DNA from: Bacillus sp. 123MFChir2
Lineage (GTDB): Bacteria > Bacillota > Bacilli > Bacillales > Bacillaceae_G
NCBI RefSeq assembly: GCF_000383235.1
Contig: NZ_KB910939.1
Span: forward strand, 1 to 64,000
Length of the DNA stretch: 64,000 nucleotides
Direction: 5' to 3'
Shown here: positions 18,359 through 56,066 of the stretch, piece by piece
Layout: each line of letters begins with the position of its first letter
How positions within the stretch are numbered: position 1 is the first letter of the stretch
Translations under genes and position numbers: made by a program
The notes under the pieces: generated by a model
The model's input: the letters and a program-made list of their open reading frames with translations, nothing else
What the model was told of the DNA's origin: nothing
The model's database searches: none

Positions 18359-19499
18359 CACGTCTGTTGATTATCTAAATTCTACCAAAAAATGAATACA
18401 AAAAGAGAGATTCCTCTTGTACAATGTAAGTTACCATACCAACATTGACGAAACGAGGAATCTCTCATGAACAAGAATACCACGTCCCACACATTGATTC
18501 AAAACTTTCTTTCAGAAGCAGAGCTCCAGGCGATTTTAACGGAGTTCAACCACACCGAGACAGCCCGAAAACGCACGGTTTCTACTGTTATTTCTTATTT
18601 AATTAGTGCTGCGACAAATGAATGGAAAAGCTTGCGTCACGCAGCTGATGTTGGTCCGAGTGTTGGACTCATTTCCGTCGATCATTCATCATTGTCAAAG
18701 CACATGAAAGCGCTAGATTACGCCATTATGAAGCGTATCTTCGAAGTCATTGTTGGCAAGTTGAATCGTGCTACACGTCGAACACTAAAGATGCCGAGAA
18801 CGCTTCTTTCAATTGATTCGACGACTATTACTGTCGGTAAAACACGCTTACCATGGGCCGTTTATCACGACGAACGTTCGGGCATAAAACTGCATGTCAG
18901 CTTCACAAACGAAACAGTGATGCCTCTTCAAATCGTTGAAACAACAGGGCTCAAACATGACGGTCCCATTGGCGTAAGGCTTGAGGATAAACGCTTTATC
19001 CTCGTTTGTGATCGTGCGTATTTTTCAATAGATAAAGTGGACCGCTACGTGACTGAAAAAGAAAAGCAACATTTTGTTATCCGATTAAAAGACAATGTTC
19101 AACTGAATCGCAAGAAATCACTAAAAGGCACATGTCCCACGGATTCAAACGTGACAGCTGAAGAAATCGCCGCTATGTACAAATCGCGTTGGTCCATAGA
19201 GTCCTTTTTCCGCTGGATTAAGCAGAATTTGAACGTTCCCGTGTTATTTGGCACGACGAAAAATGCGGTGTTCAATCAGTTGTTCGCAGCTATGATTGCC
19301 TACGTTTTACTAAAGTTTTTACATGTACAAGGAAATAAGAAAAACCCTCAAAAATCCCTATCATTCACAGGGTTTACACGCCTGTTTCTTTGTGACGTCC
19401 TGCCATTCGAGTGGAGGATTAGCATAAAAGAAACATTGAAATTTTATTGGTGTTTGAATCAATTGGAGATTGTATAATTTTGGTTAATCAACACGCGTG
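18359..19499 (+). mobile_element. IS4-family insertion sequence
   Basis: Terminal inverted repeats can be matched: CACGTCTGTTGATTATC inward from 18359 and, on the other strand, CACGCGTGTTGATTAAC inward from 19499. The element is about 1141 bases and carries one transposase gene. The left flank is the 5' part of a Nudix gene and the right flank the 5' part of an alcohol dehydrogenase gene in opposite orientation. No target duplication is seen (the bases outside both ends differ), as expected if a deletion started from one end of the element. Confidence 0.8.
18467..19477 (+). CDS. IS4-family transposase, probably internally deleted
   Basis: 336 residues. DDE residues are present: D117 (LLSIDSTTITVGKTRLPWA), D182 (LVCDRAYFS) and E245 in the Y-(2)-R-(3)-E-(6)-K motif (Y238, R241, E245, K252). 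Close relatives as I remember them have about 40 more residues between the second Asp and the Glu, carrying several beta strands. Here DSNVT runs directly into AEEIAAMY, as if one of two NVTA repeats and the DNA between them were lost. Activity is therefore doubtful. The ATG follows a GAGGAATCTCTC stretch. Confidence 0.85.
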   Translation: MNKNTTSHTLIQNFLSEAELQAILTEFNHTETARKRTVSTVISYLISAATNEWKSLRHAADVGPSVGLISVDHSSLSKHMKALDYAIMKRIFEVIVGKLNRATRRTLKMPRTLLSIDSTTITVGKTRLPWAVYHDERSGIKLHVSFTNETVMPLQIVETTGLKHDGPIGVRLEDKRFILVCDRAYFSIDKVDRYVTEKEKQHFVIRLKDNVQLNRKKSLKGTCPTDSNVTAEEIAAMYKSRWSIESFFRWIKQNLNVPVLFGTTKNAVFNQLFAAMIAYVLLKFLHVQGNKKNPQKSLSFTGFTRLFLCDVLPFEWRISIKETLKFYWCLNQLEIV

Positions 19500-23919: not shown

Positions 23920-24190
23920 AAAATCCTCATCAATCCGATGAGGTAGAGGTTGCGACTTTTATTAGTAATCTAGACGAGACGCGGAGAACGTCAATAACTC
24001 TAGCTGAAAGGAAAAGTTGCCGAAGTTTATACTTCTTCTCTGGGAGTATATGCTGGGGCTGTTTTCGAATAGGAACAGAACTGTCACGTTTACAAAATTA
24101 CCGTGTAAACGTGGGGCGCTATCTTAACGGAAGGTATGATGGGGTGGCTATTTTTGAATTGCTCCGCTAAAGTCCTTTGGCGGTTTTTTT
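23920..24190 (+). promoter_or_regulatory. Lysine riboswitch (L-box) with terminator
   Basis: Conserved L-box blocks appear in order: GTAGAGGTTGCGA (23943-23955), AGTAA (23964-23968), CTGAAAGG (24004-24011), GTTGCCGAAG (24016-24025), CTGGG, GCTG, ACTGTCAC and GGGGCGCTATCTT (24113-24125). The last can close P1 with GGTAGAG. A terminator follows with arms 24164-24172 and 24175-24183 and a T7 run. High lysine should end transcription before lysP. This agrees with the gene behind it. Confidence 0.93.
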
Positions 24191-34942: not shown

Positions 34943-34979
34943 TTCGTAGTATACACAATACATATACTTATGCCATCTT

Positions 34980-35082
34980 TCTTATCTTTCAAGCCTTACA
35001 CTTGCTGGAATTGGCACAGTATTCATAATGAATCCGCTGCCGAGGCTTCAAAGGGCCAGTCCCTCCACCTCTCATGATAAGA
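34980..35082 (-). promoter_or_regulatory. SAM-I riboswitch (S-box) of the M20 hydrolase
   Basis: Read on the minus strand: CTTATCATGAGAGGTGGAGG, then GACTGGCCC, GAAGCCTCGGCA, then GTGCCAATTCCAGCAAG and CTTGAAAGATAAG, the full set of conserved S-box blocks including the closing P1 helix. A sigma-A promoter lies just upstream: TTGACT (35148-35153 on plus coordinates), 17 bases, TAGAAT (35125-35130). SAM should promote termination at 34912-34942. Confidence 0.95.
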
Positions 35083-35160
35083 AATTTAAAGTATTCATAT
35101 AGGATTAATTTTGAAATTATTTTCATTCTAATTTCATCATGAACAAAAGTCAAGAAAATT

Positions 35161-52325: not shown

Positions 52326-52432
52326 TTCTTATCTGTCAGAACAAAACTGTTCTGCTGGAATTAGCACCTGCATTGCGGTTGCTGGGTTTCATCGGGCCAG
52401 TCCCTCCACCTCTCTAGATAAGAAAATATTCA
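52326..52432 (-). promoter_or_regulatory. SAM-I riboswitch (S-box) of the 51974 gene
   Basis: Minus strand: CTTATCTAGAGAGGTGGAGG, GACTGGCCCGATGAAACCC, AGCAACCGC, GGTGCTAATTCCAGCAGAAC and CAGATAAG closing P1. All conserved S-box blocks are present. A promoter lies upstream: TTGACT (plus coordinates 52467-52472), 17 bases, TATAGT (52444-52449). Confidence 0.95.
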
Positions 52433-54233: not shown

Positions 54234-54234
54234 C

Positions 54235-54265
54235 AAAACCTGTCTCAATAGATGAGACAGGTTTT
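54235..54265 (+). terminator. Terminator of ybaK
   Basis: Perfect 12-bp arms (54235-54246 and 54254-54265) and a T-rich tail. Confidence 0.93.
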
Positions 54266-54313
54266 GTTTATTTAATTTAAAGTTTAACGCCTCTTGTTTT
54301 ATAGAATTATTTC

Positions 54314-54531
54314 GTAACTACTCAGCTATACCTTTTAAAAACTTAGAAAGGAGTATGATTCTAGTAAAGATATGTCTCTCTATTACTTATACATTCATTT
54401 TTCGGCACATAGACTGCTGTCATGCAAACAGGGCAGGAGCTGGCTACTTTTGTTTTCAAACTTTGCACGTGGCAGGAAAAGTCTCTGACCGCTCCTATGC
54501 ATCACCAGCACCCCTCGCCCATTTCAAAAAA
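54314..54531. repeat. GTAACTACTCAG repeat, truncated copy, inverted relative to 3812-4080
   Basis: Begins GTAACTACTCAG (54314-54325) and follows the reverse complement of 4080-3850 closely: CTATACCTTTTA, GATATGTCTCTCTATTACTT, ATAGACTGCTGTCATGCAAA, CACGTGGCAGGAAAAG, CGCTCCTATGCATC. It breaks off after CCCATTTCAAAAAAA; the other terminal repeat is missing. The hisS promoter -35 box starts 3-4 bases beyond the break. Confidence 0.8.
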
Positions 54532-54534
54532 AGT

Positions 54535-54571
54535 TTGATAATTCGAATTTTAAGTAGTATACTACTTAAAA
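54535..54571 (+). promoter_or_regulatory. hisS promoter with a 24-bp perfect palindrome over the -10 box
   Basis: -35 TTGATA (54535-54540), 17-base spacer, -10 TATACT (54558-54563). The bases 54548-54571 form a perfect 24-bp palindrome (TTTTAAGTAGTA and its complement) centred on the -10 region. It may be an operator for a dimeric repressor; alternatively its transcribed half has no role. Confidence 0.75.
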
Positions 54572-54591
54572 AGCTATAGGAGAGATTGCTT

Positions 54592-54636
54592 ATGTTTAGA
54601 ATAGATTATACTTTCCAACTTCATCATCATACATAA
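54592..54636 (+). CDS. His leader peptide (14 residues, three consecutive His)
   Basis: ATG 54592 with AGGAG 9 bases before opens a 14-codon frame, MFRIDYTFQLHHHT, ending in TAA 54634-54636. The three CAT codons (54622-54630) near the end are followed at once by a set of alternative hairpins and a terminator, then by a histidyl-tRNA synthetase gene. This is the layout of ribosome-mediated attenuation. The peptide itself probably has no function beyond being translated. Confidence 0.8.
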   Translation: MFRIDYTFQLHHHT

Positions 54637-54642
54637 AGCCTT

Positions 54643-54745
54643 GTATCCGAAGAAATTTTTCTTCGTGGGTACAGGGTTATTCCTGTTTACCCACGAAGCG
54701 ATTATAAAGCTATGTGGGTATTTTCATACCCACATAGCTTTTTTT
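54643..54745 (+). promoter_or_regulatory. Three-hairpin attenuator of hisS
   Basis: Hairpin A: 54643-54655 with 54658-54672 (8-bp core 54648-54655/54658-54665, plus a 5-bp extension). Hairpin B: 54661-54671 with 54688-54698 (11 bp) and inner CAGG/CCTG. Terminator C: 54706-54720 with 54727-54741 (15 bp, perfect) and T-run. The A right arm and B left arm are the same bases. TACCCAC of B (54688-54694) can instead pair GTGGGTA of C (54714-54720). So A frees B's right arm to block C (read-through), while B permits C (stop). A ribosome at the stop codon would cover the start of A; one stalled at the His codons would not. Confidence 0.8.
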
Positions 54746-54767
54746 ATTTCAAAAAGGAGTGATAAAC

Positions 54768-56066
54768 ATGAACTTACAAAATGTAAAAGGAACAAAAGAT
54801 TATTTACCAGAAGAGCAAATGCTGCGTAATACCATTAAACGGACTTGTGAAGAAACATTCGAAGCTTATGGCTGCAAACCGCTAGAAACACCTATTTTGA
54901 ACATGTATGATTTAATGGCTTATAAATACGGTGGAGGTTCTGAAATTTTAAAGGAGATGTACACGCTTCAAGATCAAGGGAATCGCGAACTTGCACTGCG
55001 TTATGATTTAACCATTCCCTTTGCAAAGGTTGTTGCTATGAATCCAGAAATTCGCCTTCCTTTTAAACGTTATGAAATTGGGAAAGTATTTCGAAACGGC
55101 CCTATTAAACAAGGAAGATTTCGAGAGTTTGTACAGTGTGATGTAGATATTGTTGGGGTTGAATCCGTCTTAGCGGAAGCAGAATTAATGGTAATGGCTC
55201 TTGGCATTTTTAACAAATTGAACTTAGACGTAACCATTCAATATAACAACCGAAAACTATTAACAGGGTTGTTACAGGCGATTCAAATCCCCGAATCGCA
55301 AGTACAAGATATTATTTTATCTGTAGATAAGCTTGAGAAAATTGGTATTGACGGTGTAAGAAATGATTTAATAAATCGAGAGATACAAAGCGAAGCGATT
55401 GATGTGTTATGTAAGACATTAGAAACATGTATGTCTATGCCACTTTCTGAATTTGATAAAGTGTATCCTAACCTTCTTGTTAAAGAGGGAGTTGCTGAAC
55501 TTCAAGAACTTCAGCAATACTTAGATGCACTAGGAATTCAATCTAATACATTGTTCTCCCCCTTTCTTGCACGAGGACTCACAATGTATACCGGAACAAT
55601 TTATGAAGTTTTTTTAACTGACGGCAGTATTACGTCTAGCATTGGTAGTGGTGGACGCTATGATCACATTATTGGTGCATTTCGAAATGATAATAAATCT
55701 TATGCGACAGTTGGAATATCGTTTGGTTTAGACGTCATTTATACTGCGCTTATCCAAAAAGAACGTGTATCCTCTGCTGTCGATCTCTTTATCATTCCAC
55801 TCGGAACACAGGCACAGTGTCTAAAAATTGCTCACACTTTGCGAACAAATGAAAATTTAAAGATAGAGCTGGAACTGGCAGATCGTAAACTAAAACGAGC
55901 CCTAAATTATGCAAACAAAGAAAACATTCCGTATGTACTTATCGTCGGTGAAGAAGAAATAAATAACGATGTAGCTGTTTTACGAAATATGAAGGAAGGC
56001 ACGGAACAAACGATTCCTCTTGCTTCTATTGAAAATGGAACTTTCAAACAATATTTATATCGTTAA
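54768..56066 (+). CDS. hisS: Histidyl-tRNA synthetase paralogue (HisS2 type)
   Basis: 432 residues, class II synthetase. It opens NVKGTKDYLPEEQMLRNTI. Motif 2 is KRYEIGKVFRNGPIKQGRFR then EFVQCDVDIVG. The HisA region is RGLTMYTGTIYEVF (usually RGLDYYTG), HisB is GSGGRYD, and an anticodon-binding domain ends the protein (DLFIIPLGTQ, ELELADRKLKRALNYANKEN, YVLIVGEEE). The anticodon domain and HisA arginine argue for a real HisRS and not HisZ, though D-to-T and Y-to-M changes in HisA are notable. The start is ATG 54768 after AAAGGAG. It is controlled by the leader attenuator; this is likely the second HisRS of the genome. Confidence 0.88.
   Translation: MNLQNVKGTKDYLPEEQMLRNTIKRTCEETFEAYGCKPLETPILNMYDLMAYKYGGGSEILKEMYTLQDQGNRELALRYDLTIPFAKVVAMNPEIRLPFKRYEIGKVFRNGPIKQGRFREFVQCDVDIVGVESVLAEAELMVMALGIFNKLNLDVTIQYNNRKLLTGLLQAIQIPESQVQDIILSVDKLEKIGIDGVRNDLINREIQSEAIDVLCKTLETCMSMPLSEFDKVYPNLLVKEGVAELQELQQYLDALGIQSNTLFSPFLARGLTMYTGTIYEVFLTDGSITSSIGSGGRYDHIIGAFRNDNKSYATVGISFGLDVIYTALIQKERVSSAVDLFIIPLGTQAQCLKIAHTLRTNENLKIELELADRKLKRALNYANKENIPYVLIVGEEEINNDVAVLRNMKEGTEQTIPLASIENGTFKQYLYR

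Follow-up and report, generated by a model that had tools for sequence, protein, structure and literature searches.

A putative histidine leader-peptide attenuator upstream of a second-type histidyl-tRNA synthetase gene and its relation to the trpB motif

Three alternative hairpins and a terminator precede the gene for a second-type histidyl-tRNA synthetase (hisS*) in the DNA analyzed here, a stretch of 64,000 nucleotides that we call the window. We consider it very likely that this leader is a ribosome-mediated transcription attenuator sensing charged tRNA-His, and ribosome-mediated His control of the second synthetase, proposed in a preliminary description of the sequence, is the best reading of the region. 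The observations that bear on it concern the parts of the leader and the extent to which they are conserved, the arrangement of codons and arms, a calculated switch, and links established with covariance models. The element as such is not new, its prediction having been in print since 2010 (PMC2965389). It is also likely that there is one exchangeable chassis in Firmicutes and Fusobacteria, in which His, Trp, Phe, Tyr or Leu codons match the downstream gene and of which the trpB motif is the Trp/aromatic branch and not a riboswitch.

Results

Structure of the leader and its surroundings

The hisS* gene (54768–56066, + strand) was assigned as a PRK12420 histidine–tRNA ligase (724 bits, cut-off 540) and by Pfam. 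The gene preceding the leader encodes a Cys-tRNA(Pro) deacylase (NCBIfam); behind it lies a terminator-like site (54234–54266), and the leader therefore probably begins a separate unit. The promoter claimed in the preliminary description corresponds to a sigma-70-type promoter-like site at 54535–54563 (+; TTGATA-17-TATACT, 10/12 matches), but one such site against a mean of 1.9 in shuffled sequences is weak evidence taken alone, and we infer rather than observe a promoter upstream of the leader ORF.

A Shine-Dalgarno sequence, AGGAG (54578–54582, +), stands ahead of the ATG at 54592 and agrees with the good ribosome site described earlier. The leader ORF MFRIDYTFQLHHHT (54592–54636, +) has 14 codons and a TAA stop, as had been stated, and contains three regulatory His codons, CAT CAT CAT (CATCATCAT), at 54622–54630 (+); these do not directly adjoin the stop, from which a single Thr codon separates them.

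Five strands follow, all on the + strand. Strand 1 (54637–54648) is the left arm of hairpin A, pairs with 54667–54678 and encloses an inner hairpin. Strand 2 (54661–54676) is the left arm of hairpin B and mostly also the right arm of A, while strand 3 (54681–54698) is the right arm of B, which spans 54661–54698. Strand 4 (54706–54721) is the left arm of the terminator, and strand 5 (54726–54745) comprises its right arm and the U tract. The antiterminator (AT, 3:4) is formed by 54688–54699 and 54709–54720 with 11 pairs and one mismatch. The pairings 3:4 and 4:5 are mutually exclusive because strand 4 is common to both. All arms of the three mutually exclusive hairpins proposed earlier could thus be located, including the pairing of the right arm of B with the left arm of the terminator; the terminator itself (54706–54741) is present and has 16 pairs, not the 15 first reported. 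The fold of 54560–54760 has a z-score of −6.2, and none of 200 shuffled sequences folds as well.

Rfam searches confirmed that no T-box is present in the window at the gathering score, nor in 54250–54800 at E-values up to 10. The window contains a lysine riboswitch at 23936–24129 (+) and two SAM riboswitches at 34979–35083 (−) and 52326–52424 (−). An ORF at 18467–19477 (+) resembles an insertion-sequence transposase. Comparison of the hisS* protein with viral contigs, and of the last 25 kb of the window and the leader with plasmids, gave no matches; plasmid-borne relatives of hisS* exist, with an identity of at most 56%.

Conservation of the leader upstream of related genes

Upstream DNA was inspected for 20 of 80 loci obtained by protein similarity. 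The His leader was revealed in 15 of them, including L017, which is the same locus as L092, and was absent in L003, L004, L009, L016 and L027. Among 63 related hisS* loci, the earlier 15 included, 59 have His codons in their leaders (55 recognized by script, three [L122–L124, LHYYHKQR] by eye, and L141 further upstream), and four (L135–L138) have no His leader. As a rule, the His codons form a run of three, but in some leaders there are two or the run is interrupted (L092, L121, L122–L125). In the 59 leaders the rest of the peptide is largely variable while the His codons stay. The conserved His codons, arms and terminator expected from the preliminary description were therefore found before related genes, although protein similarity searches revealed no relatives of the hisS* protein above 61% identity. 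Judging by the two hisS genes, the window probably belongs to the Bacillus cereus group.

The leaders were divided into classes. Class 1 includes the window, Brevibacillus, one Paenibacillus, Geosporobacter, a Sporomusaceae genome and further Clostridia; class 2 comprises other Paenibacillus-like genomes; class 3 comprises Bacillus sensu lato and Planococcaceae. The chain of five strands is common to the leaders of classes 1 and 2 and is not found in class 3.

The class 3 loci (L084–L090, L092, L119–L121, L130, L131, L139–L150 and L007) are all upstream of hisS*. Their leaders contain His codons, a conserved hairpin of which the stop codon is part, a near-invariant AUAGGAAGRCUAUU and then a terminator (21 aligned leaders); a search for an antiterminator in them found none. 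Two class 3 leaders precede plasmid-borne hisS* genes, in Lysinibacillus fusiformis (L130) and Planococcus versutus (L131).

T-boxes were found before none of the 15 hisS* loci, as against four of five control loci, which are HisRS-like and more distant (25–29% identity). These five loci belong to genomes G001, G002, G006, G007 and G011, all of which except G007 have their own hisS* locus among the fifteen.

Pairing and covariation of the helices

For a swap test we chose 12 divergent leaders from classes 1 and 2; in this test, strands were paired with their own or with foreign partners and the pairing energies were summed. The own pairings of A (1:2), B (2:3) and the terminator (4:5) were better than all 100,000 permutations; AT (3:4) was weaker, being equalled by 130 of 100,000, and three control pairings showed no enrichment in these 12 leaders. 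When each leader was compared with 300 shuffles, an AT as good was obtained once for the window, twice for L103, once for L093 and never for L132, while in eight of the 12 leaders AT was weak and was equalled by 38 to 121 shuffles. The core of AT covaries between leaders: CCUGC:GCAGG, CCCAC:GUGGG, CCUAU:AUAGG and CCUACG:CGUAGG.

In an alignment of 14 class 1 leaders, pairing is retained in 95% of the cells of A and 92% of those of AT. Three pairs of A are changed on both sides, a number reached by 3 of 500 column shuffles, and two pairs of AT, reached by 49 of 500; the covariation scores are equalled by 1/500 (A) and 4/500 (AT) shuffles. Strand 3 of the window is offset by two columns in this alignment, which counts against AT. 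The 3:4 antiterminator is thus the weakest helix of the chain.

Calculated effect of ribosome position

According to the proposed mechanism, when His is scarce the ribosome would stall at the first His codons and strand 1 would stay free; it would then take strand 2, so that strand 3 would be released to pair with strand 4, no terminator would form and hisS* would be transcribed. When His is plentiful, a ribosome at the stop codon would mask strand 1, the pairings 2:3 and 4:5 would form, and transcription would end. Stalling, termination and the direction of the cellular response are what we infer from the arrangement.

For each position of the ribosome we calculated a gap, i.e., the free energy without the terminator against that with it, in equilibrium values, with ribosome-covered bases blocked and a footprint of +13. 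In the window it is 11.4 kcal/mol for His1, 13.0 for His2, 17.6 for His3, 19.2 for the stop codon and 14.8 without a ribosome; therefore, His1 is the stall site most favorable to antitermination, and the untranslated leader is intermediate. The gap at the Leu codon preceding His1 is 11.5 kcal/mol, within 0.1 of His1. The difference between His1 and the stop is −7.8; in a run of 57 leaders, where the window ORF was placed one base too far to the right, it was −8.4, with the same conclusion.

In this run the mean difference was −9.1 for 26 leaders of class 1, −4.1 for six of class 2 and +1.1 for 25 of class 3 (range −0.5 to +7.1), L127 being counted as class 1 although it is class 2 by sequence. 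The difference is below zero in 31 of the 32 class 1 and class 2 leaders. A His codon has the lowest gap in 13/25 leaders of class 1 (6.0 expected), 2/7 of class 2 (1.3) and 7/25 of class 3 (5.3), the types being assigned here by another rule, so that the class sizes differ. We rejected class 3 leaders as instances of the same mechanism because the calculation gives no coupling in them.

The calculation gives the switch predicted by the earlier ribosome-position logic and, within the bounds of equilibrium energies, supports the view that ribosome position may choose between terminator and antiterminator. The calculated barriers in the window (kcal/mol) are 10.3 for A to B, 3.0 for A to A + AT, 5.1 for B to AT and 8.8 for A + AT to A + terminator, and at the decision point the antiterminator is favored, by equilibrium energies, even with the ribosome at the stop. 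With so low a barrier between B and AT, a clean switch is harder to assume for the window; taken together with an AT favored in both ribosome states, it means that the switch must partly depend on folding kinetics.

Histidine leaders before other genes

A covariance model, R1, was built from 14 class 1 leaders, the window included. Among 398 Bacilli genomes it had matches in 29, of which 18 were hisS* leaders (ten of which had served to build R1); the other 11 were one decayed-looking copy (L169), three more His leaders and seven matches judged to be due to chance. Of the three additional His leaders, L170 is located before another HisRS gene, and L171 and L172 before genes that by eye are apparent hisZ and hisG. 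R1 misses the class 2 and class 3 leaders in the same Bacilli sample. The copy in L169 (genome G281) matches R1 at 87 bits and lies before a broken-looking hisS* frame; no His run was found in its leader.

Among 391 Clostridia genomes R1 gave 32 matches in 26 genomes, 22 with a His leader (two in the model) and ten without. Ten downstream proteins, taken from the Bacilli and Clostridia searches together, were tested, and the best assignment was HisZ for eight (four of them over the TIGR00443 cut-off) and HisRS for two. For 21 further His leaders found by R1, the difference between His1 and the stop is negative in 18, below −1 in 14 and positive in three; in these three the stop lies 33 to 42 bases after His1, while five others with the stop at least 30 bases after His1 are negative.

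His leaders of the same family were also observed at L182:1643–1843 (+) and L185:1279–1479 (−) before ORFs of 67 codons and not before a full synthetase. The 67-aa products resemble the HisRS anticodon-binding domain PF03129 in its C-terminal half (26.0 and 19.9 bits, respectively, cut-off 21). They share 42 of 67 residues, and the differences between the ORFs by codon position are 19/15/40.

The trpB motif and leaders with other codons

The trpB motif (RF04312) was published as a strong candidate for a riboswitch, over 900 representatives being reported, in an account that leaves an attenuator possible and gives as its commonest partner an uncharacterised ABC transporter resembling amino-acid transporters (PMC11109978, 2024). 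As described there, it resembles the window in having a hairpin, an antiterminator in the right shoulder of that hairpin and a terminator (corresponding to 2:3, 3:4 and 4:5); unlike the window, it is presented as a riboswitch candidate, and the description names no leader ORF.

The window matches RF04312 at 54662–54749 (+), covering hairpin B and the terminator and model positions 1–107, with 35.1 bits, i.e., below the gathering cut-off of 59. The direct E-values of the window are weak evidence: 0.0014 for the trpB motif and 0.002 for His_leader, with 0.0008 for the unrelated rli33 and 0.005 for YenS. Of 20 His-leader loci, eight match RF04312 at 33–54.5 bits, all below the cut-off.

Two copies of the motif over the cut-off were found, and both have a WQNW leader. 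The Fusobacterium vincentii copy (68.5 bits, leader MKQILTTTMRYWQNWHR) has no ORF of at least 100 codons on that strand within 1.5 kb downstream; the copy in genome G018 (68.7 bits, leader MAQLSINTHYSVNQRTWQNWRR) precedes the tryptophan transporter gene trpX (NF041285, 624 bits, cut-off 390).

Weaker matches carry other codons. In 49 genomes of one Clostridia family RF04312 gave 20 matches, none over the cut-off; in 16 of them a leader ORF ends shortly before the motif, and the other four were judged chance. Ten of the 16 leaders are located before sodium symporters and have Leu runs (three), Tyr (two) or Phe-rich ends (five, one mixed with Tyr), while six with an FNSQF-like end (two Phe codons) precede an ABC permease. 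Of these proteins, eight symporters and three permeases were checked against Pfam or NCBIfam, the remaining ones being assigned by similarity. Nine matches in 57 Bacilli genomes included two YYFSYF leaders, the trpX leader of G018, the His leader L171 and five chance matches. One YYFSYF leader is found before a TrpX-like gene (383.7 bits, just below the cut-off), the other before aroE accompanied by a DAHP synthase gene. Nine matches in 196 Clostridia genomes comprised two of the aromatic leaders already mentioned, four His leaders and three chance matches. In Lactococcus lactis, used as a control, the match was below the cut-off.

In the tree of the symporters, the three proteins with Leu leaders form one branch (30–32% identity to the others) and the two with Tyr leaders another, while those with Phe leaders do not make up a single branch; two changes of the Leu/Tyr/Phe labels are needed, and none of 200 shuffles does as well. 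Phe, Tyr and Leu codons are frequent by chance in AT-rich genomes, and stronger evidence comes from the His and Trp codons and from the concordance with the genes.

Seventeen non-His leaders were studied further (L210, L215, L220, L223–L231, L234–L236, L238 and L239). The stall calculation gave values below −1 in 15 of the 17, the best regulatory codon being compared here with the stop, a kinder measure than the first-codon one used for the His leaders. Differences between leader tails by codon position were 28/21/16 (six ABC leaders), 14/18/9 (four Phe), 6/3/10 (three Leu), 1/2/1 (two Tyr), 49/48/54 (five His) and 152/176/174 (12 Brevibacillus leaders), and tests for synonymous bias revealed no clear coding support in any group counted.

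In these 17 leaders the last codons pair with a segment after hairpin B, e.g., AUAGCCAA with UUGGCUAU, and 2 of 20,000 permutations are as good; part of the tail of non-His leaders is thus conserved as RNA as well. In 24 His leaders, where the hairpin end was misplaced in several, 9,879 of 20,000 permutations were as good, and such pairing is unsupported in the window. The tail pairing of non-His leaders may correspond to strand A of the Escherichia coli his leader.

A short ORF starting with MMAKFTWWWQN (by eye) was observed on an Ilyobacter plasmid (L250:1659–1748), with hairpin-like repeats and two ABC substrate-binding genes downstream. It has no R2 match (see below) and is perhaps a Trp leader on a different RNA design.

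Relation between the two groups of leaders

R1 gave matches at 16 of the 17 non-His loci (E-values from 6e-6 to 0.6, nine below 0.01) and missed L225. Conversely, model R2, built exclusively from 15 non-His leaders, matches the leader at E < 0.01 in 25 of 29 His-leader sources, with a best E-value of 9e-15. The match is weak in L172 (E 0.03), and no match at the leader was obtained in L087 (class 3), L126 (class 2) and L170. In the window the best place for R2 is 54622–54749 (29 bits, E 0.003). When 11 class 3 and five class 2 loci were searched with R2, no leader was matched, and the one match elsewhere in L087 had E 0.57.

These reciprocal matches connect the window with the trpB motif step by step, by way of clostridial His leaders, while direct matches are weak. 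We claim that the window is kin to RF04312 through intermediates and do not claim membership as Rfam defines it. WQNW in both copies over the cut-off and the swapped codons in weaker ones suggest, as far as sequence comparison goes, that the trpB motif is probably a leader-peptide attenuator with exchangeable codons.

Discussion

Synthetase genes of Firmicutes are usually controlled by T-boxes. A T-box would be a natural expectation for a synthetase gene in an apparent Firmicute, the more so as four of five distant HisRS-like loci, in genomes also having hisS*, possess one. The same covariance searches that detect these four were negative in the window, in 54250–54800 up to E 10, and at the 15 hisS* loci; we have rejected this explanation, to which we give practically no probability. 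It is very improbable that the leader is a riboswitch or a protein-binding leader, in which hairpin B and the terminator would serve as aptamer or protein-binding site, the short ORF being incidental. The trpB motif was first interpreted in this way in print ("strong riboswitch candidate", PMC11109978); the window matches it below the cut-off, and the codon-position counts of the leader tails have no clear coding signature. The codons, however, track the downstream gene (WQNW with trpX; His with hisZ, hisS and hisS*; YYFSYF with aroE), Leu runs stand ahead of the symporters of one clade and Phe or Tyr codons ahead of those of another, and the attenuator was left possible by the account of the motif in PMC11109978 itself.

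It is also very improbable that the leader is translated before a fixed terminator, with read-through reflecting general coupling of transcription and translation and no specific sensing of His. The low calculated barrier from B to AT and the preference for AT in both ribosome states in the window would fit such a leader, but the retention of His codons in 59 of 63 leaders with much of the remaining peptide variable, and the presence of other amino acids before matching genes in other versions, argue against it and for an attenuator responsive to tRNA-His charging.

The E. coli his leader has six strands, A–F, as against five in the window, which has no clear strand A. The proteobacterial his operon leader of Rfam (RF00514, His_leader) has the same order of His codons, hairpins and terminator as the window, and matches it over its full length (54621–54746, model positions 1–126) at 30.6 bits and E 0.0015, which is below the cut-off (49 bits).

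For bacilli, Naville and Gautheret (2010; PMC2965389) had predicted that hisS* and hisZ are preceded by a His leader peptide. The window element is very probably the same as theirs, given the same gene family, the leader with His codons and the premature terminator; the His-leader section of that paper is without the antiterminator chain, the analysis of stall positions and the link to the trpB motif presented here. Ashniev et al. (2022; PMC9413887) described candidate His RNA attenuators in his operons of the Bacillus cereus group, Eubacteriales and Erysipelotrichales, which share with the window three to five consecutive His codons, a terminator and an antiterminator. Their account of these attenuators concerns his operons only and calls the B. 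cereus element independently acquired, whereas in our analysis hisZ leaders of other groups are also recovered with a single model, R1, derived from hisS* leaders. For hisZ in B. cereus and its relatives, Korolev et al. (2016) refer to Lopatovskaya et al. (2010). Our literature searches revealed no experimental test of the His leader and no report of its kinship with the trpB motif, the term "trpB motif" being found in PMC11109978 alone.

Taken alone, the window confirms a published prediction. If true, the wider reading would take an orphan off the list of riboswitch candidates and save ligand searches. In that case the leader codons would indicate which amino acid is sensed by transporters of unknown substrate, which offers sharp tests of the wider reading, and Firmicutes would gain a ribosome-sensing counterpart of the T-box that may be retuned by a few codon changes.
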